From assembly GCA_018902385.1 (NCBI GenBank), contig JABSSW010000003.1, forward strand, positions 992,001 through 1,056,000: DNA of 64,000 nt, in the 5' to 3' direction. Source of the stretch: Physcia stellaris. Its lineage: Eukaryota > Ascomycota > Lecanoromycetes > Caliciales > Physciaceae. The notes below the pieces were generated by a model. The model saw only the letters and a program-made list of their open reading frames with translations. It did not search any database and was not told where the DNA came from. The position numbers and the translations under genes are program-made. This document shows, piece after piece, positions 44,899 to 62,808 of the stretch (within the stretch, counting starts at the first letter, position 1; every line of letters starts with the position of its first letter).

Positions 44899-44902
44899 AC
44901 CT
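44899..44902. repeat. Left 4-bp target-site duplication (ACCT)
   Basis: ACCT lies immediately outside the terminal repeat starting TGGCTCGCC at 44903, and the same ACCT follows the inverted terminal repeat at the right end (61788-61791). Confidence 0.55.
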
Positions 44903-45483
44903 TGGCTCGCCATAGGATTAAGAATTGGGACACGCTAGTCCCGATCGGGTACTTAGCGGCCCCTCAACCAGAACACCATAACAATATATACATTATTCGT
45001 TATTACCAGCTCAATTACCAACCCGTCATAGCTCCTAGACTGTCAATACAGTCCTGTAATCTTTGAGGCATGCTGTGTATCTGTGCGTTAATGAAATTGT
45101 ATGTAATTTTGTGTTTTCAAGTTCATTTCAATTCTCGTATCATTTTTTCGTTCGTTTCGCATGCTGTATTGATCAAATGTTTGTGTAATACGTTTCAGCA
45201 ATTTTTTATTGAAATTAAATCAAATGATTTCGCACAATTGAAATAATATTTCAAATCATGAATTTTTTTTCAAATTCGTACGTTGTTTCTTTGATCAATA
45301 TCATGTGACGAATCACGATTTTTTTTCAATACGAAATTTTTTTTTTGCGTTAATCATTTCGCAACGTCGTCAAATCGTTTCAATACGTTGATGTATTTTT
45401 GTTGAATTGTCACTATTCGTAAAATACATTTTACTATTTGTAAAATTTTTGACAGTGTCAATTTTCGAATCGTTCATTCGATA

Positions 45484-45530
45484 ATCGATAATTTATCGAT
45501 AATTTATCGATAATTTATCGATAAATAAAA
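45484..45530. repeat. Tandem ATCGATAATTT units near MULE end (outer, left arm)
   Basis: An 11-bp unit containing the palindrome TTATCGATAA is repeated about 3-4 times just inside the MULE terminus. The inner MULE end in the same arm (about 49041-49078) has a shorter run, and the right arm has matching runs at about 57605-57638 and 61165-61208. These could be transposase-binding sites. Confidence 0.6.
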
Positions 45531-46723
45531 TTCAGAATTTTCGCATTGCAACATTCAGATAATCAATCAAGCATTCATGAAATATTCATATTTTCGCAAT
45601 TTTTAATTTTTCAATCATCGAATCAAAACGACGAAAAAATTAGATAAAAAAAGATCGTGACGAAATCACGAAACGAACAAAAAAATGAAAAAAAAAACAA
45701 ACAAAAAAACGAGTAAAAAACAACGAGTAAAAAAAGAAAAAACGAAAATATGACGCTAAATTCAAAAAAAAAACATGATATGTTTCGAAAAAATCAAAAA
45801 AACGAGATTTTTGAAACATGTTATGTTTGCGATGTGATCAAAAAACGTGTATTTAACATGCGAATAAATTTTTCACAAAAAAAATGAAAATTTGATGCGC
45901 AACACATCAAAAGTTGATTCATAATTTGAAACGTTTTCGTCAAATTTTTGTCAAAAATTTTACAAATAATAAAATGTATTTTACGAATAGTGACAGTTTA
46001 TAATATAAAAATATTCAAACATTTTTTTTGCAAATTTCTGTTTATATTTTAACGAAATTATATGTATTTTGATTACGATAATAGTTTCGTGTCATTATCG
46101 TAAATATCATTGAACGTAAATTTTAAACATTCATGTTTCAAAACGATTTTTTTAGCATTACGTATCGTTTTAATTGACGTTGTAACATGTTGTAACGTTG
46201 CAAATTATTGTCGTAAATAATTTAAAACGTGACAAAATATTGTAACGTGTGTTTTCGTTATCGTAATTTTATTAAAACGTTTGTTTTTTATTTAGATTGT
46301 CATTATTCGTAAAATACATTTTATTATTTGTAAAATTTTTGACAAAAATTTTGTGAAAAACGTTTCAAATTAAAAATCAATTTTTGATGTGTCGCGCATC
46401 AAATTTTCATTCTTTTCGTGAAAAATTCATTTGCATGTTAAATACACGTTTTTTGATCACATCGCAAGCATAACATGCTTCAAAAATTTCGTTTTTTGAT
46501 TTTTTCGAAACATATCATGCTTTTTTTTTGAATTTAACGTTATATTTTCGTTTTTTTTCTTTTTATTCGTTGTTTTTTACTCGTCTTTTTGTTTGTTTTT
46601 TTTTCATTTTTTTGCACGTTTCGTGATTTCGTCGCGATTTCTTTTCATTTGATTTTTTCGTCGTTTCGATTTTGTTGATGTCGAAAAAATAAAATCGTTT
46701 TGAATTTGATGTGAAACGAATCA

Positions 46724-48945
46724 TTAATTGTACATTTGATTTGAACGAAATGTTTGCGACGAAAACGAAATCGCATCGAAAAAAAAAAAATCGAAATAAA
46801 AAATTGAAAAAAATCGAGTCATCGAAAATTCGAAATATGAAATAAAAAATCGAACAAACGTAAAAAAAAATCGAATAAACGTAAAAAAAAATCGAATAAA
46901 AAAAAATTGATTGTTCGATATTTGCATTTCGTCGTCGATAAAATCAACGATTTCAACATATTCGAAAATTGAAAAATTTCGTTATGTATTATTTGTCGAT
47001 GTTTTCGTTGATTTTTTGTTGTTTTTTTGACGATTGAGTGCATTTCTGAATCGTTTTTTCGATTTCGTTATTCGAAAATTCTGTATCAATAATAAAGAAT
47101 TTTGAATTGATGTTTCGTTTTTTTCGTTTTCGTCAACATTGACATATTCGTCAAATTTTTGATAATGTCGTGCAAATTTCTTGAAACGTCAATGAAAATG
47201 CACGTCGATCAATTTCAAAATTTCATCGTTTGTCGCATCGATCAAACGTTTTTCGATGATATGAACACAAAACAATCTCATAATACGTTTGAATACGTTC
47301 GTACAAAAAAATAATGTAATGTTTTTATTTTGTGCATTCAACAATCGTTTGTAATGATCGTCGATTTTTTTCAAAACAAACGAAATCACGAAAACGATCA
47401 AATTTCGATACAAAAACTTTTTGAAATTGTGAAAAATTCGTTGTTTGATTTTATCGATAAATATTTGATAATTATCACGTTGACGATCACACAATTCGTC
47501 GAAATTCTGTATTATTTTACGAAAATCGTTTGTAAAGTTTTCGAATTGATTTTTGAAATCATGATTTTGCTTTTCGAATTTCGAAATAATTGTATTATCG
47601 AAATGCATCAAAAAATTGATTCAAATTTTACATCATTTTCGTTTTTTCGACATGATTTCGTTGTTCAAATATTCACAAATGATCGAATTTTTGTCGTTGT
47701 ATTTGTTTTAAAATAATTGTCATTGTAAATTCAATTTTTGTTCAATCGAAACGTACAAAATCGAATGTATGTCATTCAATTTTCGAGATTTTTTTTTGAT
47801 TTTTTCATCGAAAAATTCAATTCAAATTTTTTTGATTCGAAAATATTTTTTGCATTTGTTAAATATGTTGTTTTCGATGTGTCAAACGCACAAAATGTGT
47901 TTAACATTCGATGATATTTCGTTTGCGATAATTGAAAAAATATTAAATTCATCGTTTGACAATCATATTTCAAATAAAGAAATATTCAGATGTTTGTATA
48001 AATTTTTGTAATACTGAATGAGTCATTGATAATTTTTCAATTTTTTTTTTTCAACAAAATCATGTTTGCGTAAAAAAAAATGTTCAAAATCGTCGTTTTT
48101 GTATCGATACAAAAAAACATTTTATAGCGATTGATTTTGTAAATACAATTCAACAACATGATTTCATCGTTGATTCGTAAAATGTTCATAAACGTTCGAT
48201 TGATTCAAAAAAAATGAATAATTTTTTGAATCATTGAATTTTTATTGATTCGTACAAATTATTTCGTCGAATCATTATGCAATTGTACGTTCAAAATTTG
48301 TATGAAAATCATGTTTTCGAATTTCATTTCACGTATTTTGATCACAACGTTGTAAATATTTTTCGAATTTATTTCGAAATTGTTGAAATTTTCATTATCG
48401 TACTTTTCACGAATCGAAAAAAGTATTTTTTTCGATGCAATGTTTTTACGATGTAATTCGATTATGTGAATTTTGATTTTTTTTGTCATGAAATATTGAC
48501 GTAATTTTGTATGATTGTTTTGATTCAAATTTTCGTGATTGTGCGTTTCATTCATAATTTTTTCAAATTTTCATTTGTTGTTTTCGATAAATATGTTATA
48601 AATTTTGAAAAAACATTTGATTCGTTTCGAAACGATTTTTCGTTTGTTTGTATTAATATTTTCGATTTCGTCTTTTCGAATACATCGAAAATAAATTTTG
48701 TTTTTTAAATTTTTTTTATCACGTTCAATGTTTTTTTTAATGATAAAATAGTCATGTTGTTTCGAAAAATCGTTGAAAATTTTTTGTATTTCATGTTCGA
48801 AATTGTACATTTTTCTCAAAAATGATGAAAACATAAAACGTTCAATGAATTCGAAATCGATGACAACGACGACGAACAAAAAATCATTGAATTCGTATTC
48901 ATGATCGAAAAATAGAAAAACGTTTTCGTCATCGATGACAATCAT
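46724..48945 (-). pseudogene. MULE transposase remnant, left arm
   Basis: Mirror copy of the right-arm MULE transposase, broken into the frames 48945-48571, 48555-48259, 47611-47189 and 46927-46724. The N-terminal piece shows the FAR1-like zinc-binding region (IYFRCIRKDE...RIKCFFKIY). A stop between the first two pieces sits where family members have Trp (TGG to TGA). Confidence 0.8.
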
Positions 48946-50253
48946 TTGACGTGATAATGAAAAAATTAATTGTTGCGAAAATATCGATATTTCATGAATG
49001 CTTGTTTATTTGAATGTTGCACAACGAAAATTTTGAAATTTATTTATCGATAAATTATCGATAAATTATCGATAATCGAATGTGCGATTCGAAAATTGAT
49101 TCTGTCAAGAATTTTACAAATAATAAAATGTATTTTACGAATAATGACAATTTTTTGTTGTGTCATTTTATCGTTTTGATTCGTGAACACGTAATAAAAA
49201 TACAATTTGAAACGAAAATTGTAATTCACAACAACTCAAACGTGCAATCGTTTCTTGTCTTTTTCGTCCGGTTCCGTGTAATGCTGTACGTTTTTGAGCA
49301 TGATACGACGAGCTCGACCTGTATAGCATTAGTTTGATATTGATACATCAATCATGTAATTTACCAGGTTTTCGTGCAACCAATTGACGTTGCGTTGAGC
49401 CAAAACCTTCGTGATGCTCGTCACTAAACAGTACTTTATATCAATTTTTTGAATTCGATCGTAATCGTAACGTTTTTTTGTTGAAATCAACGCGTTTCAT
49501 TGCGATATCGAAATTTTTGATTTTTTTAATAAATGATAAACGCTTGTTTCATTGCATGACAAAATTAAAAATTCGTTGTATGATTTGATTTTTGATTTTT
49601 GTATCAATTTCGATATCAATTGTATTTCAAAACAAATTTTCGTCGTTTGCAGTGTGTTTTGTAATAAATTTCGAATTAGTTTGCTGTTTATGAAAAATAA
49701 AAACTTCGAAAATATTTATTTTCGAATAATTTATCGATTTAAGTTATTTGAACATTTGTAAAATTCGTATCAATATTTCGTAAATCGTTAATATTTGAAT
49801 CATTACGTTTTGTACGATCGAAATTTTTCAATATTTCGTATTCACGTGATTTGAAAACGCTCATAATACGAAAAATTTCGTGTTTATCGAGTCGAAAAAA
49901 TTGTATTTGTTTTTTCGAAAAATAATCAAAAATATTTTTAACTTTGCAACGATGAAAAATATCGTAATGATGTGAATTTCGTAATATATTATTCATGATT
50001 ACGTGTATTGAATAAACAGCGTGTGACGTGAAAATGTATTGAAATTGAAAATGTTTGATTATTCGAATGAAAATATCAATGAAAAACGAACATTGATCGA
50101 TGTCGTTAAATATTCGATCGAAATTAACGTGTTTCAATTTTTAATTTTATGACGAAATTGATTAAATGTAAAAATTTGAAATTTTTACACATAATATAAT
50201 TTTGATTTGTCATTGATTCATTTTCAATCGCAATTTCATAAAATTTTGCACAA

Positions 50254-53000
50254 TTGATCGCAATGTCGTTCAGATGTTTGATGAAATGTCACAACATGAT
50301 CGAAAAATTTCAAAATTATTTTTACGACACATTCAAAATATTTACAATTCAATGTCGAATTTTCAAATACAATTCAAAATCAAATTTCGTTCATTTCGTT
50401 GTCGTCGTTTTTCAGTTTTTGTTTTTCGAATCGATTTTTCAAATGAATTGACATAAATTTATTTTTTGTTTTGTGTTTTTCGAAATTTCATTCGATCGTT
50501 GACGTTCGTTTAAACATAACAAATCAAATTCAATGTTACAAAAAAAACGAAACAAAATCAAACGACATTTTTTGCGAATTTTCATTTTTAAAAATCTGTT
50601 GCGATGACGAATGAAATTGTTTTTTCAATGATTTTTGCAAAAATCATGATACATCGTCATTTTTTCAAGACATTTGCAAAAACAAAAATTTCAATTCAAA
50701 AAATTGTTTTTCGTTTTGCAACAAAAATGAATGTTTGCATGTGTAACAAAATGCATTTTGATCGAATTTTAAATGATTTTAGCGAATTTACAGAAATGAA
50801 TCGATGCGATGATAACAATTGATGCTGTGCAAACGTTTCAAATCAAAAAAATGATAATAATGATTGTTGTGATCAAAATTCGATTTCATTCGAATTTTTT
50901 CGTTTTTCGCTGTTCAACGTGTGAATGAACAAAATTCGATTTCAATAATCAATTTCGCATTTTTCTCGTTTTTTCTCGTTTTTATCAATTTTTTTATGTT
51001 TTTTTCAATTTCATCAAAATTTGTGCAAACTAAATTCATTTCAGCAAAAAATTTTACGAGCACAAACGTTATTTCAATATCAACGAAAATCAATATCTCG
51101 TTTGTTGAATCAGACGATTTGAATACAAATTTTAAAATAAATATAAAAATCGCAATGTTTGTCGTTGCGATATTTTTTGCGACATTTTTGTTTTTTTTTT
51201 TTTACAAAATCGCAAACACAAAAAAATTTTTCAACAATTTCGAATATAAACACAATTCGATTCGAAAACAAATACACAAAATCAATCGATGTTACACAAT
51301 ATGCAAAAAAAATATGACGAAAAATTAAACGCATGAAAAAATCACGAATTTGTAAACGCAAATCATGAAAAACATGAATTGAATAAATTGATTCGACATG
51401 AAATGAACGACAATGACATGTCGCAATTGAATGAAAAATTTGAAAAAAAATAACAAAATTGACATTCGTTGTGTAAAAAATGAATTCGAATTCGACAGAA
51501 ATTTTTGACAACATTGTTGTTGAATTTAATTGAAATTTTGATTTGATATTCATGATCACATTCGTGAACGTAATTTTTTTATTTTCGTGATATTTTAATA
51601 TTGAATCGACTTGAAATAAATATTTTTTGATTTGTTAAATGTTTAAACGAAATTTTCAAAATTAATATTAATGAATTTTTTACGTTTTGAATCGATTGCA
51701 AAAACGATTTCGAAACATGATTATTCGATTTCGAAACAAAATCGAAATCAAAATTTCATTCATATTATATCACGATGAACATTCAAATTTTGTTTGCAAA
51801 CGAAAAAATAATTTTTACGATTAATCAATTTGTTTGCGACATTCGAATTCGATCGCATAAAATACGCATCATCGATGCAAAATCGTTTACGCATTTTGTT
51901 ATTTTAATTATATTGTTGAAAAAAATTCGATTTCAAACAATCATTGAATTACGAAAATTGCAAACGATGAAATTTTAATTTGATTTTCGAACAAATATTG
52001 AAATTACGTGAAATGTCGCGACAATGAAATGAATGAATTTTTCGCAACATTATTAAAAAATTTCGAATTTTTTGACGAATTAATTTAAATCAATTATATT
52101 ATTGATTGTTAATGCGTATTGAAAAAATTACAATGCAAAACATCATCGTAAAAAATTTGAAAAAATTCATTTGATTTAAAAAAAGTCATTAACAATGTAA
52201 TTTTCGTTTTGTGAAATTATTGACAAAAAAATTGTTCGAATTCGAATATATATCAAATTTGATTTATTTTTTTTCATTAATACATGAACATATACAAGTT
52301 CGTCTCGTTGAAATTCACGTAATTAAAATATATTTTCGTTCATTTCGTTTTCATATCATCATAATACGTTTGTTGACGACATTTCGAAAAACAATTCAAC
52401 ATTTCATGTGTCGTATTTTTTTTCAACGTTAAACATTATTTCACATCATCATTATTTTTGTACAAACGAAAAAATTCATAATTTTTTTCGTACATTTTTT
52501 TGTTGCGAAAATATTGTTTTTTTACGTTTCAACGCAAAAGTAATCATGACGTTGATCGAATTGTCATTCGCAAAAAAAATAACAAAAATACATTCGTTGT
52601 GAAAAAATTTATGATATTTGACACGAAAAATATGAATGTGACATGTAAACAGCAATTTTTCATGTTTTTGATTTATTTCGACAAAAATAAATTTTCAAAA
52701 ACGTATTTTATTCATGAATATTGCATAATTTGATAACAAATCATGAAAAATTTTTTGAATATCACGAATGCACGTCAAAAAAAAACGTTTTTGAATGACA
52801 ATGTAATGTCGAAAAACACGATTAAATTGATTAAAAATTTGCGAATTCATCATTCGATATCAATCGAACATGTGATTGATTATTTGTACGTAACACGTGT
52901 TCGTTTCGATGAAAAATCGACACATCATTTGTCGCATTATGTTTTATACGTTTTCGTTTTTTTGTTTTTTTTTCGATTTTGTGTTTGCATTTACACATAA
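50254..53000 (+). pseudogene. Unidentified inner module, left arm
   Basis: A string of plus-strand frames (50274-50456, 50604-50822, 50921-51328, 51775-51978, 52211-52432, 52743-53000) points toward the centre. Each is mirrored on the minus strand of the right arm with few differences, so this is likely one decayed gene or element. I do not recognise a family. Conserved-looking pieces include FANEKIIFTINQFVCDIRIR and EHVIDYLYVTRVRFDEKSTH. Extreme composition makes Phe, Ile, Asn and Lys dominate, so the residues seen are partly mutation products. Confidence 0.45.
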
Positions 53001-53089
53001 ATTTTTTTGATTTGATATTTGACTTGAAAACGTTTTATTTTTTTGTTGTTTTCAATTACTAAAACATTGTTCGTGTTTGCGCATTTTCA

Positions 53090-53586
53090 TCGTGCGTCAA
53101 AATTCAAGATTGATTAATTTTTATACAAAATGAATTTCAATGATTTACAATCAGATTTTTCTAAAAAAGGCAATTTCTTTGCTGTATCAGATAAACATAT
53201 CGAAAACAAAAGCGATTTTGTCAGTTGCGATGCTGATGACAGCGTCTGTATTGAATGATGATATGAAAAGAAAAAAAAATCTTCGAAAACATTGCGAGAA
53301 ATGAAAATCGAATTAAATCGAAAAATAATTCAAACGACGAGAAAAGCAATTCAGTCAGTCTTGTTGAACTTTTCACTCAACGAGCATTTTACATTCAAAA
53401 CTTTTAGACGAACAAGAAGTCGCAATTTCAATATTTGAACGAAACGCGTGAGAAAAAATTCTACGAACATCGACGAATCTGAATTCGAAAAAAATGAAAT
53501 CGACGAGTTGAGTTCGAATCAAATAACAAGATTCAGAAATATCAAAAATTGACATTATTTTGAAAAAAAGTTTTCAATTTGCGCTG
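53090..53586. other. Single-copy central loop, unmutated
   Basis: This is the only part of the island without a mirror copy. Unlike the arms it contains many AG, CT and GG dinucleotides (for example AAAAAAGGCAATTTCTTTGC and GAAGTCGC) and looks like ordinary AT-rich DNA. It has a 42-codon plus frame (from an ATG at about 53130, MNFNDLQSDFSKKGNFFAVS...) and a 60-codon minus frame (53555-53373). Neither is recognisable. Confidence 0.75.
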
Positions 53587-53675
53587 TGAAAATGCGCAAA
53601 CACGAACAATGTTTCAATAATTGAAAACAACAAAAAAGTAAAACGTTTTCAAATCAAGTATCAAATCAAAAAAAT

Positions 53676-56426
53676 TTATGTGTAAATGCAAACACAAAAT
53701 CGAAAAAAAAACAAAAAAACGAAAACGTATAAAACATAATGCGACAAATGATGTGTCGATTTTTTATCGAAACGAACACGTGTTACGTACAAATAATCAA
53801 TCATATGTTCGATTGATATCGAATGATGAATTCGCAAATTTTTAATCAATTTAATCGTGTTTTTCGACATTATATTGTCATTCAAAAACGTTTTTTTTTG
53901 ACGTGCATTCGTGATGTTCAAAAAGTTTTTCATGATTTGTTATCAAATTATGCAATATTCATGAATAAAATACGTTTTTGAAAATTTATTTTTGTCGAAA
54001 TAAATCAAAAACATGAAAAATTGTTGTTTATATGTCACATTCATATTTTTCGTGTCAAATATCATAAATTTTTTCACAACGAATGTATTTTTGTTATTTT
54101 TTTTGCGAATGACAATTCGATCAACGTCATGATTATTTTTGCGTTAAAACGCAAAAAAACAATGTTTTCGCAACAAAAAAATGTACGAAAAAAATTATGA
54201 ATTTTTTCGTTTGTACAAAAGTAATGATAATGTGAAATAATGTTTAACGTTGAAAAAAAAATACGACACATGAAATGTTGAATTGTTTTTCGAAATGTCG
54301 TCAACAAACGTATTATGATGATATGAAAACGAAATAAACGAAAATATATTTTAATTACGTGAATTTCAAAAAAACGAATTTGTATATGTTCATGTATTAA
54401 TGAAAAAAAATAAATCAAATTTGATATATATTCGAATTCGAACAATTTTTTTTGTCAATAATTTCACAAAACGAAAATTACATTGTTAATGATTTTTTTT
54501 AAATCAAATGAATTTTTTTCAAATTTTTTCACGATGATGTTTTGCATTGTAATTTTTTCAATACGCATTAACAATCAATAATATAATTGATTTAAATTAA
54601 TTCGTCAAAAAATTCGAAACTTTTTAATAATGTTGCGAAAAATTCATTCATTTCATTGTCGCGATATTTCACGTAATTTCAACATTTGTTCGAAAATCAA
54701 ATTAAAATTTCATCGTTTGCAATTTTCGTAATTCAATAATTGTTTGAAATCGAATTTTTTTCAACAATATGATTAAAATAACAAAATGCGTAAACGATTT
54801 TGTATCGATGATGCGTATTTTATGCGATCGAATTCGAATGTCGCAAACAAATTGATTAATCGTAAAAATTACTTTTTCGTTTGCAAACAAAATTTGAATA
54901 TTCATCGTGATATGATATGAATGAAATTTTGATTTCGATTTTGTTTCGAAATCGAATAATCACGTTTCGAAATCGTTTTTGCAATCGATTCAAAACGTAA
55001 AAAATTCATTAATATTAATTTTGAAAATTTCGTTTAAACATTTAACAAATCAAAAAAATATTTATTTCAAATCGATTCAATATTAAAATATTACGAAAAT
55101 AAAAAAATTACGTTCACGAATGTGATCATGAATATCAAATCAAAATTTCAATTAAATTCAACAACAATGTTGTCAAAAATTTTTGTCGAATTCGAATTCA
55201 TTTTTTACACAACGAATGTCAATTTTATTATTTTTTTTCAAATTTTTCATTCAATTGCGACATGTTATTGTCGTTCATTTCATGTCGAATCAATTCATTC
55301 AATTCATGTTTTTCATGATTTGCGTTTGCAAATTCGTGATTTTTTTATGCGTTTAATTTTTCGTCATATTTTTTTTGCATATTGTGTAACATCGATTGAT
55401 TTTGTGTATTTGTTTTCGAATCGAGCTGTGTTTGTATTCGAAATTGTTGAAAAATTCTTTTGTGTTTGCGATTTTGTAAAAAAAAAAACAAAAATGTCGC
55501 AAAAAATATCGCAACGACAAACATTGCGATTTTTATGTTTATTTTAAAATTTGTATTCAAATCGCTTGATTCAACAAACGAAATATTGATTTTCGTTGAT
55601 ATTGAAATAGCGTTTGTGTTCGTAAAATTTTTTGTTGAAATGAATTTAATTTGCACAAATTTTGATGAAATTGAAAAAAACATAAAAAAATTGATAAAAA
55701 CGAGAGAAAACGAGAAAAATGCGAAATTGATTATTGAAATCGAATTTTGTTCATTCACACGCTGAACAGCGAAAAACGAAAAAAATTCGAATGAAATCGA
55801 ATTTTGATCACAACAGTCATTATCATCATTTTTTTGATTTGAAACGTTTGCACAACATCAATTGTTATTATCGTATCGATTCATTTTTGTAAATTCGTTA
55901 AAATCATTTAAAATTCGATCAAAGTGCATTTTGTTACACATGCAAACATTCATTTTTGTTGCAAAACGAAAAACAGTTTTTTGAATTGAAATTTTTGTTT
56001 TTGCAAATGTTTTGAAAAAATGACGATGTATCATGATTTTTGCAAAAATCATTGAAAAAACAATTTCATTCGTCATCGCAACAAATTTTTAAAAATGAAA
56101 ATTCGCAAAAGATATCGTTTGATTTTGTTTCGTTTTTTTTGTAACATTGAATTTGATTTGTTATGTTTAAACGAACGTCAACGATCGAATGAAATTTCGA
56201 AAAACACAAAACAAAAAATAAATTTATGTCAATTCATTTGAGAAATCGATTCGAAAAACAAAAATTGAAAAACGACGACGACGAAATGAACGAAATTTGA
56301 TTTTGAATTGCATTTGAAAATTCGACATTGAATTGTAAATATTTTGAATGTGTCGTAAAAATAATTTTGAAATTTTTCGATCATGTTGTGACATTTCATC
56401 AAACATCTGAACGACATTGCGATCAA
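53676..56426 (-). pseudogene. Unidentified inner module, right arm
   Basis: Mirror image of 50254-53000, with frames at 56406-56224, 56076-55858, 55758-55345, 54905-54702, 54445-54074 and 53933-53676. It shows the same decayed, unrecognised content, with small differences that can be used to reconstruct mutation order. Confidence 0.45.
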
Positions 56427-57315
56427 TTGTGCAAAATTTTATGAAATTGCGATTGAAAATGAATCAATGACAAATCAAAATTATATTATGTGTAAAAGTT
56501 TCAAATTTTTACATTTAATCAATTTCGTTATAAAATTAAAAATTGAAACACGTTAATTTCGATCGAATATTTAGCGACATCGATCAATATTCGTTTTTCA
56601 TTGAAATTTTCATCCGAATAACCAGACATTTTCAACTTCAATACACCCTCACGTCGCACGTTGTATATACAATACACGTAATCATGGGTGGTATACTACG
56701 AGGCTCACATCATTACGATACCCCTCATCGTTGCAGAGTTAAGGGTGTTTTTGATTATTTTTCGAAAAAACAAATACAGCTTTCTCGACTCGATAAACAC
56801 GAAATCTTCCGTATTATGGGCGCTTTCAGATCACGTGAATACGAAATATTGAAAGGTTCCGATCGTACAAGACGTAATGATCCAAATACTAGCGATTTAC
56901 GAAATATTGATACGAATTTTACAGATGTTCAAATAACTTAAATCGATAAATTATTCGAAAATAAATATTTTCGAAGTTTTTATTTTTCATAAACAGCAAA
57001 CTAATTCGAAATTTATTACAAAACACATTGCAAACGACGAAAATCTGTTTTGAAATACAATTGATATCGAAATTGATACAAAAATCAAAAATCAAATCAT
57101 ACAACGAATTTTTAATTTTGTCATGCAATGAAACAAGCGTTTATCATTTATTAAAAAAATCAAAAATTTCGATATCGCAATGAAACGCGTTGATTTCAAC
57201 AAAAAAACGTTACGATTACGATCGAATTCAAAAAATTGATATAAAATACTGTTTAGTGACGAGCATCACGAAGGTTTTGGCCCAACGCAACGTCAATTGG
57301 TTGCACGAAAACCTG

Positions 57316-57364
57316 GTAAGTTATTACATGATTGATATATCAATATCAAATTAATGTTATACAG
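57316..57364 (+). other. Spliceosomal intron in the Tc1-like transposase
   Basis: Donor GTAAGT, acceptor ATACAG, 49 nt. Splicing joins ...ARKPG to the following DRTRRIML in frame. The left arm has the mutated equivalent near 49318-49363. Confidence 0.6.
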
Positions 57365-57522
57365 ATCGAACTCGTCGTATCATGCTCAAAAACGTACAGC
57401 ATTACACGGAATCGAACGAAAAAAACAAAAAACGATTGCACGTTTGAGTTGTTGTGAATTACAATTTTCGTTTCAAATTGTATTTTTATTACGTGTTCAC
57501 GAATCAAAACGATAAAATGACA

Positions 57523-57530
57523 CAACAAAA
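57523..57530. repeat. MULE target-site duplication CAACAAAA (right arm; partner at 61286-61293)
   Basis: The identical 8-mer follows the far end of the composite, and the mirrored pair is present in the left arm. MULEs normally create 8-10 bp duplications. Confidence 0.65.
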
Positions 57531-57737
57531 AATTGTCACTATTCGTAAAATACATTTTATTATTTGTAAAATTCTTGACAGTGTCAACTTTCGAATCGTC
57601 TATTCGATTATCGATAATTTATCGATAATTTATCGATAAGTAAATTTCAAAATTCTCGTTGTGCAACATTCAAATAAACAAACACTCATGAAATATCGAT
57701 ATTTTCGCAACAATTAATCTTTTTATCATCACGTCAA

Positions 57738-59963
57738 ATGATTGTCATCGATGACGAAAACGTTTTTCTATTTTTCGATCATGAATACGAATTCAATGAT
57801 TTTTTGTTCGTCGTCGTTGTCATCGATTTCGAATTCATTGAACGTTTTATGTTTTCATCATTTTTGAGAAAAATGTACAATTTCGAACATGAAATACAAA
57901 AAATTTTCAACGATTTTTCGAAACAACATGACTATTTTATCATTAAAAAAAACATTGAACGTGATAAAAAAAATTTAAAAAACAAAATTTATTTTCGATG
58001 TATTCGAAAAGACGAAATCGAAAATATTAATACAAACAAACGAAAAATCGTTTCGAAACGAATCAAATGTTTTTTCAAAATTTATGACATATTTATCGAG
58101 AACAACAAATGAAAATTTGAAAAAATTATGAATGAAACGCACAATCACGAAAATTTGAATCAAAACAATCATACAAAATTACGTCAATATTTCATGACAA
58201 AAAAAATCAAAATTCACATAATCGAATTACATCGTAAAAACATTGCATCGAAAAAAATATTTTTTTCGATTCGTGAAAAGTACGATAATGAAAATTTCAA
58301 CAATTTCGAAATAAATTCGAAAAATATTTACAACGTTGTGATCAAAATACGTGAAATGAAATTCGAAAACATGATTTTCATACAAATTTTGAACGTACAA
58401 TTGCATAATGATTCGACGAAATGATTTGTACGAATCAATAAAAATTCAATGATTCAAAAAATTATTCATTTTTTTTGAATCAATCGAACGTTTATGAACA
58501 TTTTACGAATCAACGATGAAATTATGTTGTTGAATTGTATTTACAAAATCAATCGTTATAAAATGTTTTTTTGTATCGATACAAAAACGACGATTTTGAA
58601 CATTTTCTTTTACGCAAACATGATTTTGTTGAAAAAAAAAAAATTGAAAAATTATCAATGATTCATTCAGTGTTACAAAGATTTATACAAACATTTGAAT
58701 ATTTTTCTATTTGAAATATGATTGTCAAACGATGAATTTAATATTTTTTCAATTATCGTAAACGAAATATTATCGAATGTTAAACACATTTTGTGCGTTT
58801 GACACATCGAAAACAACATATTCAACAAATGCAAAAAATATTTTCGAATCAAAAAAATTTGAATTGAGTTTTTCGATGAAAAAATCAAAGAAAAATCTCG
58901 AAAATTGAATAACATACATTCGATTCTGTACGTTTCGATTGAACAAAAATTGAATTTACAATGACAATTATTTTAAAACAAATACAACGACAAAAATTCG
59001 ATCATTTGTGAGTATTTGAACAACGAAATCATGTCGAAAAAACGAAAATGATGTAAAATTTGAATCAATTTTTTGATGCATTTCGATAATACAATTATTT
59101 CGAAATTCGAAAAGCAAAATCATGATTTCAAAAATCAATTCGAAAACTTTACAAACGATTTTCGTAAAATAATACAGAATTTCGACGAATTGTGTGATCG
59201 TCAACGTGATAATTATCAAATATTTATCGATAAAATCAAACAACGAATTTTTCACAATTTCAAAAAGTTTTTGTATCGAAATTTGATCGTTTTCGTGATT
59301 TCGTTTGTTTTGAGAAAAATCGACGATCACTACAAACGACTGCTGAATGCACAGAATAAAAACATCACATTATTTCTTTGTACGAACGTATTCAAACGTA
59401 TTATGAAATTGTTTTGTGTTTATGTCATCGAAAAACGTTTGATCGATGCGACAAGCGATGAAGTTTTGAAATTGATCGACGTGCATTTTCATTGACGTTT
59501 CAAAAAGTTTGCACGACATTATCAGAAATTTGACGAATATGTCAATGTTGACGAAAACGAAAAAAACGAAACATTAATTCAAAATTCTTTATTATTGATA
59601 CAGAATTTTCGAATAGCGAAATCGAAAAAACGATTCAAAAATGCACTCAATCGTCAAAAAAGCAACAAAAAATCAACGAAAACATCGACAAATAATACAC
59701 AACGAAATTTTTCGATTTTCGAATATGCTGAAATCGTTGATTTTATCGACGACGAAATGCAAATATCGAACAATCAATTTTTTTTTATTCGATTTTTTTT
59801 TACGTTTATTCGATTTTTTTTTACGTTTATTCGATTTTTTATTTCATATTTCGAATTTTCGATAATTCGATTTTTTTCAACTTTTTATTTCGATTTTTTT
59901 TTTTTCGATGCGATTTCGTTTTCGTCGCAAACATTTCGTTCAAATCAAATGTACAATCAATGA
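57738..59963 (+). pseudogene. Mutator-like (MULE) transposase remnant, right arm
   Basis: Frames 57738-58112, 58128-58424, 59073-59495 and 59595-59963 line up with fungal MULE transposases. They show a FAR1/WRKY-GCM-like N-terminus (FSKQHDYFIIKKNIERDKKN, IYFRCIRKDE, RIKCFFKIY) and NETHNHE and LHRKNIASKKIFFSIRE, as usual ahead of the catalytic domain. The central DDE region is broken by stops. The C-terminal SWIM-type part follows, ending RLIDATSDEVLKLIDVHFH. The first inter-frame stop replaces the expected Trp. Confidence 0.83.
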
Positions 59964-60685
59964 TTCGTTTCACATCAAGTTCAAAACGATTTCATTTTTT
60001 CGATATCAACAAAATCGAAACGACGAAAAAATCAAATGAAAAGAAATCGCGACGAAATCACGAAACGTGCAAAAAAATGAAAAAAAAGCAAGCAAAAAGA
60101 CGAATAAAAAGCAACGAATAAAAAGAAAAAAAACGAAAATATGACGTTAAATTCAAAAGAAAAACATGATATGTTTCGAAAAAATCAAAAAACGAAATTT
60201 TTGAAACATGTTATGCTTGCGATGTGATCAGAAAACGTGTATTTAACATGCAAATGAATTTTTCACGAAAAGAATGAAAATTTGATGCGCGACACATCAA
60301 AAATTGATTTTTAATTTGAAACGTTTTTCACAGAATTTTTGTCAAAAATTTTACAAATAGTAAAATGTATTTTACGAATAGTGACAATTTAAATAAGAAA
60401 CAAACGTTTTAACAAAATTACGATAACGAAAACACACGTTACAATATTTTGTCACGTTTTAAATTATTTACGACAATAATTTGCAACGTTACAACATGTT
60501 GCAACGTCAATTAAAACGATACGTAATGTTAAAAAAATCGTTTTGAAACATGAATGTTTAAAATTTACGTTCAATGATATTTACGATAATGACACGAAAC
60601 TATTATCGTAATCAGAATACATATAATTTCGTTAAAATATGAGCAAAAATTTGCAAAAAAAATGTTTGAATATTTTTATATTATA

Positions 60686-61285
60686 GATTGTCATTATTCG
60701 TAAAATACATTTTATTATTTGTAGAATTCTTGACAGAAATTTGACGAAAAACGTTTCAAATTATGAATCAACTTTTGATGTGTTGCGCATCAAATTTTGA
60801 TTTTTTTTGTGAAAAATTTATTCGCATGCTAAATACACGTTTTTTGATCACATCGCAAACATAACATGTTTCAAAAATTTCGTTTTTTTGATTTTTTCGA
60901 AGCATATCATGTTTTTTTTTTGAATTTAACGTCATATTTTCGTTTTTTTTTTTTTTTTTTTATTCGTTGCTTTTTATTCGTTTTTTTGCTTGTTTTTTTT
61001 TTTATTTTTTTGCTCGTTTCGTGATTTCGTCACGATTTTTTTTTATTTAATTTTTTCGTCGTTTTGATTCGATGATTGAAAAACTAAAAATTGCGAAAAT
61101 ATGAATATCTCATGAATGTTTGATTGATTATTTGAATGTTGCAATGCGAAAATTCTGAATTTTATTTATCGATAAATTATCGATAAATTATCGATAAATT
61201 ATCGATTATCGAATGAGCGATTCGAAAGTTGACATTGTCAAAAATTTTACAAATAGTAAAATGTATTTTACGAATAGTGACAATT
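60686..61285 (-). mobile_element. Non-autonomous MULE derivative (right arm)
   Basis: About 600 bp. Bases 60686-61075 are the reverse complement of the MULE 3' end (59995-60389), and 61075-61285 are the reverse complement of its 5' end, so the transposase has been deleted. With the adjacent MULE it forms a nested ~0.4-kb inverted repeat around a 296-bp spacer. Confidence 0.7.
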
Positions 61286-61787
61286 CAACAAAAATACATC
61301 AACGTATTGAAACGATTTGACGACGTTGCGAAATGATTAACGCAAAAAAAAAATTTCGTATTGAAAAAAAATCGTGATTCGTCACATGATATTGATCAAA
61401 GAAACAACGTACGAGCTTGAAAGAAAATTCATGATTTGAAATATTATTTCAATTGTGCGAAATCATTTGATTTAATTTCAATAAAAAATTGTTAAAACGT
61501 ATTACACAAACATTTGATCAATACAGCATGCGAAACGAACGAAAAAATGATACGAGAATTGAAATGAGTTTGAAAGCACAAAATTACATACAATTTTATT
61601 AACGCACAAATACACAGCATGTTTCAAAAATTACAAAACTGTATTGACAGTCTAAAAGCTATGACGAATTGATAATTGAGCTGATAATAACGAATAATGT
61701 ATATATTGTTATGGTGTTCTGGTTGAGGGGCCGCTAAGTACCCGATCGGGACTAGCGTGTCCCAATTCTTAATCCTATGGCGAGCCA

Positions 61788-61791
61788 ACCT
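61788..61791. repeat. Right 4-bp target-site duplication (ACCT)
   Basis: Partner of 44899-44902, directly outside the terminal repeat ending GGCGAGCCA. Confidence 0.55.
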
Positions 61792-62808
61792 CCCAACTTT
61801 GGCACTCTTCTAGCTCTAGCCCCTAAGCCCGCTCGGACCCCTTTCCGAATCTGGATCGGACGAGACTGCAGCTGCTGACTGGGTACTGTAATGACTTTAC
61901 CTGATACATTTCCGGCCCCTGGACGTTCAATATCTGGCAGCGGCGAGGTCTAAGCCTCTCCGGCAGATGGCATCCTCAAACTAATCTCCGCTGTGTGCAA
62001 TGATACAACCTGCATTCCGAGGCACATGAAACTCCCCCTAGCACTCGTACCGTATATCTCTATCCCATGGTCTGGTGTGTTGCTATCTTGCCTCTACCTT
62101 AAGACATGGTCACTGACATACCCATGATGACAAAACGCGTACCCGTCTTTGGCACAAAGCATATGAAGCCGACATGAAGATGCCATCATCTTCTGATTTC
62201 GTCCCAAGTCGGGTAATCGCAGATCTGTCAGTGTATCATAAAGATCAGCGCCACTTACTATCAGACCATGGGACACGTGAATGAGGGTGCAATGAGCATT
62301 CGGTAGGTAGTCTTTATCATTTGACCCTTGGAAAATAGGTGCCTAATGAGACAATGAATCAATGAATTAATCAAACAGATGGAAGAAGCCGATGCTCGGA
62401 TGAGGGAGGGCCTGCAGTCAAGTAGCGTACGAGCTCGAGTATCCGATGGTATCTGGAATCTCTGCATGATATAAGTATACCTTTCAAACTTCGAGTCCCT
62501 TAAGGCCCCTCGCAGAGCTACAGGACAAGAATAGATAGCATGGGATGACATTCGAGCTATGGAAACCCCGATCTCATCCTTGCCTACCTCATCACAAGAA
62601 GCGACTTGAAAGAACATAAGCGAACGAAAACCCGACTTTGGAAGAACATTGAGTCTAAAGCTCCGTTTATGGATTCCAGCAACGGGTAATCTGGTCGAGG
62701 AAACGAATGGAAGGCAATTGGTCACTCTTTCTGATCGACTTTGGTCATAGAGAGCGTTTCTCAATTATCGAGAAAAAAATCTCGAACAAAGCGAAACAAT
62801 ATGAAGTT
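61792..62808. other. Intergenic right of the island
   Basis: Base composition returns abruptly to normal. Minus-strand frames of 60 and 167 codons (62276-62094, 62764-62261) lack domains and are not called. Confidence 0.45.
62773..62779 (-). terminator. Pol III oligo-T terminator
   Basis: A run of seven A on the plus strand is TTTTTTT on the minus strand, about 30 nt downstream of the tRNA-like gene. Confidence 0.55.

Follow-up and report, generated by a model that had tools for sequence, protein, structure and literature searches.

What process removes nearly every cytosine that precedes a pyrimidine from a large inverted repeat and leaves those that precede a purine largely in place? This question is raised by an AT-rich island in a 64,000-nucleotide stretch of Physcia stellaris DNA (the window), located on contig C3 of an assembly that comprises 44.0 Mb in 147 contigs. 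Repeat-induced point mutation (RIP) is usually presented, and screened for, as a CpA-to-TpA change. An earlier note, made from the letters of the window alone, had instead read the island as the product of a RIP-like process with CpC and CpT (together CpY, as opposed to CpR for CpA and CpG) as its target. This reading is supported by polarised alignments, by a copy of normal composition and by the presence of genes of the RID and DIM-2 classes. We thus consider it probable that the island is a duplicated element that was hypermutated by a repeat-directed C-to-T mutator, namely RIP with a changed target.

The CpY depletion of the island is a real observation. Across 46001-62000, taken in 2-kb bins, GC content is 24–30%, as compared to 47–55% in the bins covering 1-44000. 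Relative to expectation, CC/GG amount to 0–0.39 and CT/AG to 0.07–0.30 in the 2-kb bins of 46001-60000, and CA/TG (1.20–1.51) and CG (2.89–3.84) all lie above expectation, so that their claimed persistence holds. TA, described in the earlier note as not especially enriched, is even mostly lower in these bins (0.33–0.50) than in those of 1-44000 (0.47–0.82). The stretches said to lack CC, CT, GG and AG altogether are borne out by counts against shuffled sequence: these dinucleotides are absent from 55021-55200, where 20000 shuffles gave a mean of 17.5 and a minimum of 6, and number 334 in 45100-61600, against a mean of 2113 over 200 shuffles. Runs without CpY reach 574 bases in the island and at most 35 bases in 1-44000; the index (CpC+CpT+GpG+ApG)/(CpA+TpG+2CpG) is 0.086 in the former and 1.033 in the latter.

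The island corresponds to an inverted repeat at 44902-61788, 16.9 kb in total, with arms of about 8.2 kb each that are about 96% alike. Its parts are as follows:

44902 to 53089, forward strand: left arm, mutated from about 45080 onward; CpY/CpR 0.07 in 45061-53090
53090 to 53586, unstranded: spacer of 497 bases, partly mutated; CpY/CpR 0.34 in 53095-53580
53587 to 61788, reverse strand: right arm, mutated to about 61720; CpY/CpR 0.09 in 53587-61600
44902 to 45060, unstranded: outer end of the left arm, without visible mutation; CpY/CpR 1.22
61601 to 61788, unstranded: outer end of the right arm, only the inner part mutated; CpY/CpR 0.78 across the whole
55021 to 55200, unstranded: stretch singled out by the earlier note, with zero CC, CT, GG and AG

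The damage sets in at 45060-45080 and ceases near 61720. The repeat itself is slightly wider than the extent first given, 45060 to 61600. When the arms are aligned, 277 substitutions are seen, 266 of them transitions and 11 transversions, along with 18 gap columns; the statement that every step is C-to-T or G-to-A therefore nearly holds, except for the transversions. Cytosines that changed between the arms are followed by T, C, A and G in 162, 29, 69 and 6 cases, while for the conserved ones the corresponding numbers are 67, 21, 1005 and 884, excluding nine conserved cytosines with unequal or no 3' neighbours. CpA is thus also changed between the arms, at a low rate. The run ACCCCTCA at 56720-56727 had been quoted as an example in which only the C before A survives. 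Indeed, in its counterpart in the other arm (49953-49960), four cytosines in CpC or CpT context are changed and the CpA cytosine is kept.

Pieces related to the island are found on many other contigs (106 matches, with 40 of 58 candidates scored). As a Pfam search with the five island open reading frames of at least 150 amino acids gave nothing above cut-off, the element in the window is left unclassified. Less mutated patches are present within the mutated arms at 49201-49500, 56551-56950 and 57201-57400, the second of which lies opposite a heavily mutated stretch of the other arm. Four copies of a short repeat, some of them inverted, lie within the arms (45934-46009, 49088-49163, 60325-60400 and 61221-61296). 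Similar pieces of about 250 bases are present on other contigs, and the repeat may represent a small nested element.

The direction and context of the change can be read most clearly against a long terminal repeat (LTR) retrotransposon copy, locus L042, which has an RVT_2 frame without stops, a GC content of 0.52, normal dinucleotides and a second LTR that is 100% identical. In five mutated copies compared with it (L062 was left out, as it overlaps L056), C-to-T changes affect 1750/1838 CpC, 1410/1669 CpT, 182/1912 CpA and 88/1688 CpG sites, at rates that are alike on both strands. Among eight LTR-only loci that were aligned, L060, L061, L063, L064, L065 and L067 are mutated to differing degrees, with 11/27 CpC, 7/27 CpT, 2/40 CpA and 0/30 CpG sites changed in L060. 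In a close pair of repeats (L008/L009), the numbers of changed and kept sites are 106 and 21 for CpT, 15 and 348 for CpA, and 4 and 320 for CpG. CpY, and not CpA, is thus the main context both in close pairs and in the comparison with L042. The composition of the island is not shared by the unmutated copy of an affected element, the stop-free L042 having normal dinucleotides.

The damaged repeats include inverted copies, dispersed copies and one ribosomal DNA (rDNA) unit. The latter, L005 (C41:44399-47552), is the one 5.8S-bearing unit found when 39 of 2644 candidates were scored, and is a mutated pseudogene copy. Where both letters of the site are upper case in the Rfam consensus, C-to-T is seen in 28/32 CpC, 20/36 CpT, 0/28 CpA and 0/40 CpG sites (four CpG sites carry other letters), and 236/239 A/T positions are unchanged. 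The contrast is weaker when all consensus letters, including the variable ones, are used (CpC 115/177, CpT 68/108, CpA 12/99 and CpG 27/142). The 18S part of this unit carries an insertion of about 400 bases near Rfam model position 1377, possibly an intron.

For a broader view, 144 non-redundant kilobase segments were cut from the loci examined, island pieces included. GC content is below 35% in 73 of them, which come from 29 loci, and 72 of these 73 carry the signature, defined by observed/expected values under 0.6 for CpY, of 0.85 or more for CpA and over 1.5 for CpG; the lone exception is one segment of L019 with CpY 0.64, CpA 1.33 and CpG 1.45. None of the 73 AT-rich segments passes the classical RIP indices, and neither does the island itself, with values of 0.45 and 1.34.

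The coding damage follows the same context. Relative to L042, TGG has become a stop in 52/52 aligned codons (48 TGA and 4 TAA), as compared to 3/44 for CAA, 3/44 for CAG and 0/24 for CGA. A mutator that targets CpY acts on the CpC opposite TGG and so yields TGA, and CAA, CAG and CGA offer it no such path to a stop; as CpA and CpG are spared, the damage consists mainly of Trp-to-TGA and missense changes. In domain matches across the genome, TGA, TAA and TAG stops number 250, 33 and 3 for RVT_1 (150 matches, 10 of them stop-free; 150 of 527 candidates scored), 401, 101 and 3 for RVT_2 (137 matches, 4 stop-free; 150 of 165 candidates scored) and 44, 3 and 0 for DDE_1 (10 matches, 1 stop-free). 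The TGA excess in these domains is partly compositional and should be considered against the island triplets in all frames (TGA 0.565, TAA 0.41 and TAG 0.025); the codon comparison with the intact L042 is free of this effect.

Candidate enzymes for such a process were sought with the PF00145 profile, which gave four matches in three genes of the genome. L002, whose reading runs past the end of the locus, aligns to PDB entry 9bap with 608.6 bits (E 2e-181), the next best being DNMT1 chains at 122.7 bits. We take 9bap to be DIM-2, although its PDB row names only a DNA (cytosine-5-)-methyltransferase, and L002 is accordingly assigned as a DIM-2 orthologue. L003 has EQT in motif VI, presumably a mark of RID/Masc1, whereas L001 (C6:790057-794028) is shorter, with 513 amino acids, and has EET instead; the two share 39% identity over 307 columns of the catalytic part. 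All three proteins have complete catalytic motifs and, as judged by eye, retain the PCQ loop as well as the GN motif near the C-terminus. On the basis of these motifs and of features that we take as typical, L001 and L003 are assigned to the RID class. The search for RID/Masc1 and Dim-2 homologues that the earlier note had suggested thus yields two RID-class genes and one DIM-2 orthologue. A search with APOBEC_N found no match, but as the controls gave none either, this carries little weight.

When these data are combined, the best reading is RIP by a RID-family enzyme for which a 3' pyrimidine would take the place of A as the recognition signal. The changes follow the base 3' of C and hardly the 5' one, and at all four repeat edges that were looked at the damage ends within the repeat. 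The element would have been duplicated into what is now an inverted repeat, and both copies then hypermutated from C to T. A RID/Masc1-class enzyme resembling C5-methyltransferases and accepting a 3' pyrimidine rather than adenine would carry out the conversion in paired repeats, either directly or through 5-methylcytosine (5mC), probably during the sexual phase. While the changed target is seen directly in the alignments, the enzyme is a candidate: we favor a RID-class protein, with DIM-2 next. It is conceivable, although we lean against it, that a duplication of RID allowed the target to shift from CpA to CpC/CpT, with the diverged EET protein L001 as a dedicated CpY mutator.

Several observations weigh against this reading and need to be considered. 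The preferred target here differs from CpA, at which RIP usually acts, and the spacer, which occurs once in the genome, is nonetheless partly mutated (CpY/CpR 0.34, as compared to 0.07 and 0.09 in the arms). The CpY preference is tied to neither RID-class gene. The loci are not a random sample, having been chosen because they resemble the island or because they matched transposons, rDNA or methylases. Besides those at CpY, changes at CpA and CpG are numerous in pairs of about 67% identity. The LTR pieces L059 and L066 are without CpY mutation, and two pairs of intact reverse-transcriptase copies of normal composition, L037/L038 (C5 and C12; 94.9% over 3477 columns) and L045/L046 (C8 and C42; 96.8% over 3197 columns), have no CpY bias. 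While many long duplicates of high identity are hit, not every one is therefore being hit now, and present activity of the mutator is uncertain. The unhit intact pairs may postdate the last sexual round or escape, or the mutator may be weak at present. Another duplicated stretch, L027 (C20:581589-584852) and L028 (C98:1805-5069), is 93.6% alike over 3280 columns; part of the pair is GC-rich, the CpY signature is present in the AT-rich first kilobase, and overall the divergence is ordinary, with CpG changed most (40 changed, 396 kept).

The closest alternative assigns the damage to DIM-2 rather than RID: CpC and CpT in heterochromatic repeats would be methylated and then deaminated, in mitotic or sexual cells. 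An orthologue is present, and the partly mutated spacer recalls the spread of DIM-2 between close repeats in Neurospora. Yet at four edges, namely both ends of the island and both ends of an array on contig C11, the damage comes to an end within the repeat, 60-180 bases before its matched edge, without outward spread; CpY/CpR is normal in the outer flanks of the island (1.16 and 1.12), and values beyond the right C11 edge range from 0.6 to 1.2. CpC is, moreover, mutated here at least as strongly as CpT. A preference for CpT is reported for the DIM-2 of Neurospora (PMC13297926), and dim2 increases mitotic C-to-T change in Zymoseptoria repeats, although at CpA, with CT almost unmethylated (PMC8016269). 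Altogether, we regard DIM-2 as an unlikely source of the pattern. It is considerably less likely still that all repeat cytosines were attacked and only CpY was lost, because methylation or a bound protein, for instance, protected CpA and CpG. Such protection would explain why both CpA and CpG are spared, yet it requires a separate context-free deaminase, and thus more parts than a changed recognition, and 5mC usually raises rather than lowers C-to-T change.

Deamination by an AID/APOBEC-like enzyme or ultraviolet (UV) damage at dipyrimidines would likewise give C-to-T changes where two pyrimidines meet. AID/APOBEC action and UV damage, however, are determined by the 5' base or directed at TpC, while C5-methyltransferases read their site by its 3' context. 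In our data, the 5' base has little effect, with changed fractions of 0.94-0.97 for CpC, 0.84-0.88 for CpT, 0.07-0.14 for CpA and 0.04-0.07 for CpG (these counts, and the trinucleotide counts below, include both of the overlapping loci L056 and L062); this sets the AID/APOBEC pattern aside. The low values for TpCpA (77/549) and TpCpG (23/609), next to high ones for ApCpC (506/531) and GpCpT (335/392), do the same for UV, and we find either cause highly improbable. CpG deamination was also set aside, given 88/1688 CpG sites changed relative to L042 and 0/40 in the rDNA. Finally, we give almost no credence to a composition original to the element or to an assembly artefact. Only the low GC content itself would fit, while L042 is normal in composition and its copies nonetheless carry the signature, the mutated rDNA unit derives from a known sequence, and 277 arm differences, almost all transitions, are not expected from a fold-back artefact.

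The favored RID-type process should also be considered next to known systems. As in Neurospora crassa RIP, C:G-to-T:A changes affect repeats only, rDNA included, on both strands, all copies are hit, although unequally, and RID-class genes are present; here, however, CpC and CpT are the targets and CpA largely escapes, there is no enrichment of TpA, TGA is the stop that arises and the classical indices are negative. CpT beside or above CpA has been described for Botrytis, Sclerotinia and Magnaporthe (PMC4352252), Anisogramma (PMC10998396) and Neurospora Tad1 (PMC2621366), and two RID-class genes are reported in some species with CpT-type RIP. In these three sources CpA is changed too, and no CpC preference is named in the parts consulted. 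CT-to-TT is dominant in Monilinia vaccinii-corymbosi (PMC8022979), as is CpT-to-TpT in control fungi (PMC7882544); the relevant parts of both name this dominance alone, and neither a CpC preference nor CpA sparing. A different dinucleotide preference, with CpA not depleted, was suggested for Monacrosporium haptotylum (Orbiliomycetes), where TpA/ApT are raised and TAA/TAG stops expected, the reverse of the present case (PMC3828140). Mutation linked to DIM-2 in Zymoseptoria tritici shares repeat C-to-T change connected to a C5-methyltransferase, and differs in its CpA context (PMC8016269). The CpG/TpCpG mutation of basidiomycetes (Microbotryum, per PMC4352252) also changes repeat cytosines outside CpA, but CpG is the least affected context here. 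RIPed rDNA of other ascomycetes is mainly changed at CpA (PMC5555474, PMC7493409), a kingdom-wide survey with a pattern-agnostic k-mer screen concludes that a CpA preference is shared (PMC12543289), and purified RID is, according to a review, without methyltransferase activity in vitro (PMC13297926).

The earlier note knew of no description of such a preference. This stands in so far as no system that takes CpC/CpT and leaves CpA came up among the open-licence PMC papers that the searches listed, but not for CpT as a target, which is already published. The system acts like RIP yet differs from canonical CpA RIP in its CpC/CpT target together with the sparing of CpA.

As the classical indices were negative in 73/73 AT-rich segments, surveys that rely on them alone could miss such genomes. 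The contrast with CpA-preferring fungi makes it possible to test which RID residues choose the target and whether RID itself is the mutator. A repeat mutator, furthermore, need not act mainly through TAA and TAG stops. If the target did switch through a duplicated RID, genomes of this kind would be scored as RIP-negative, and their genes would be inactivated through TGG-to-TGA rather than through CAA/CAG-to-stop changes.

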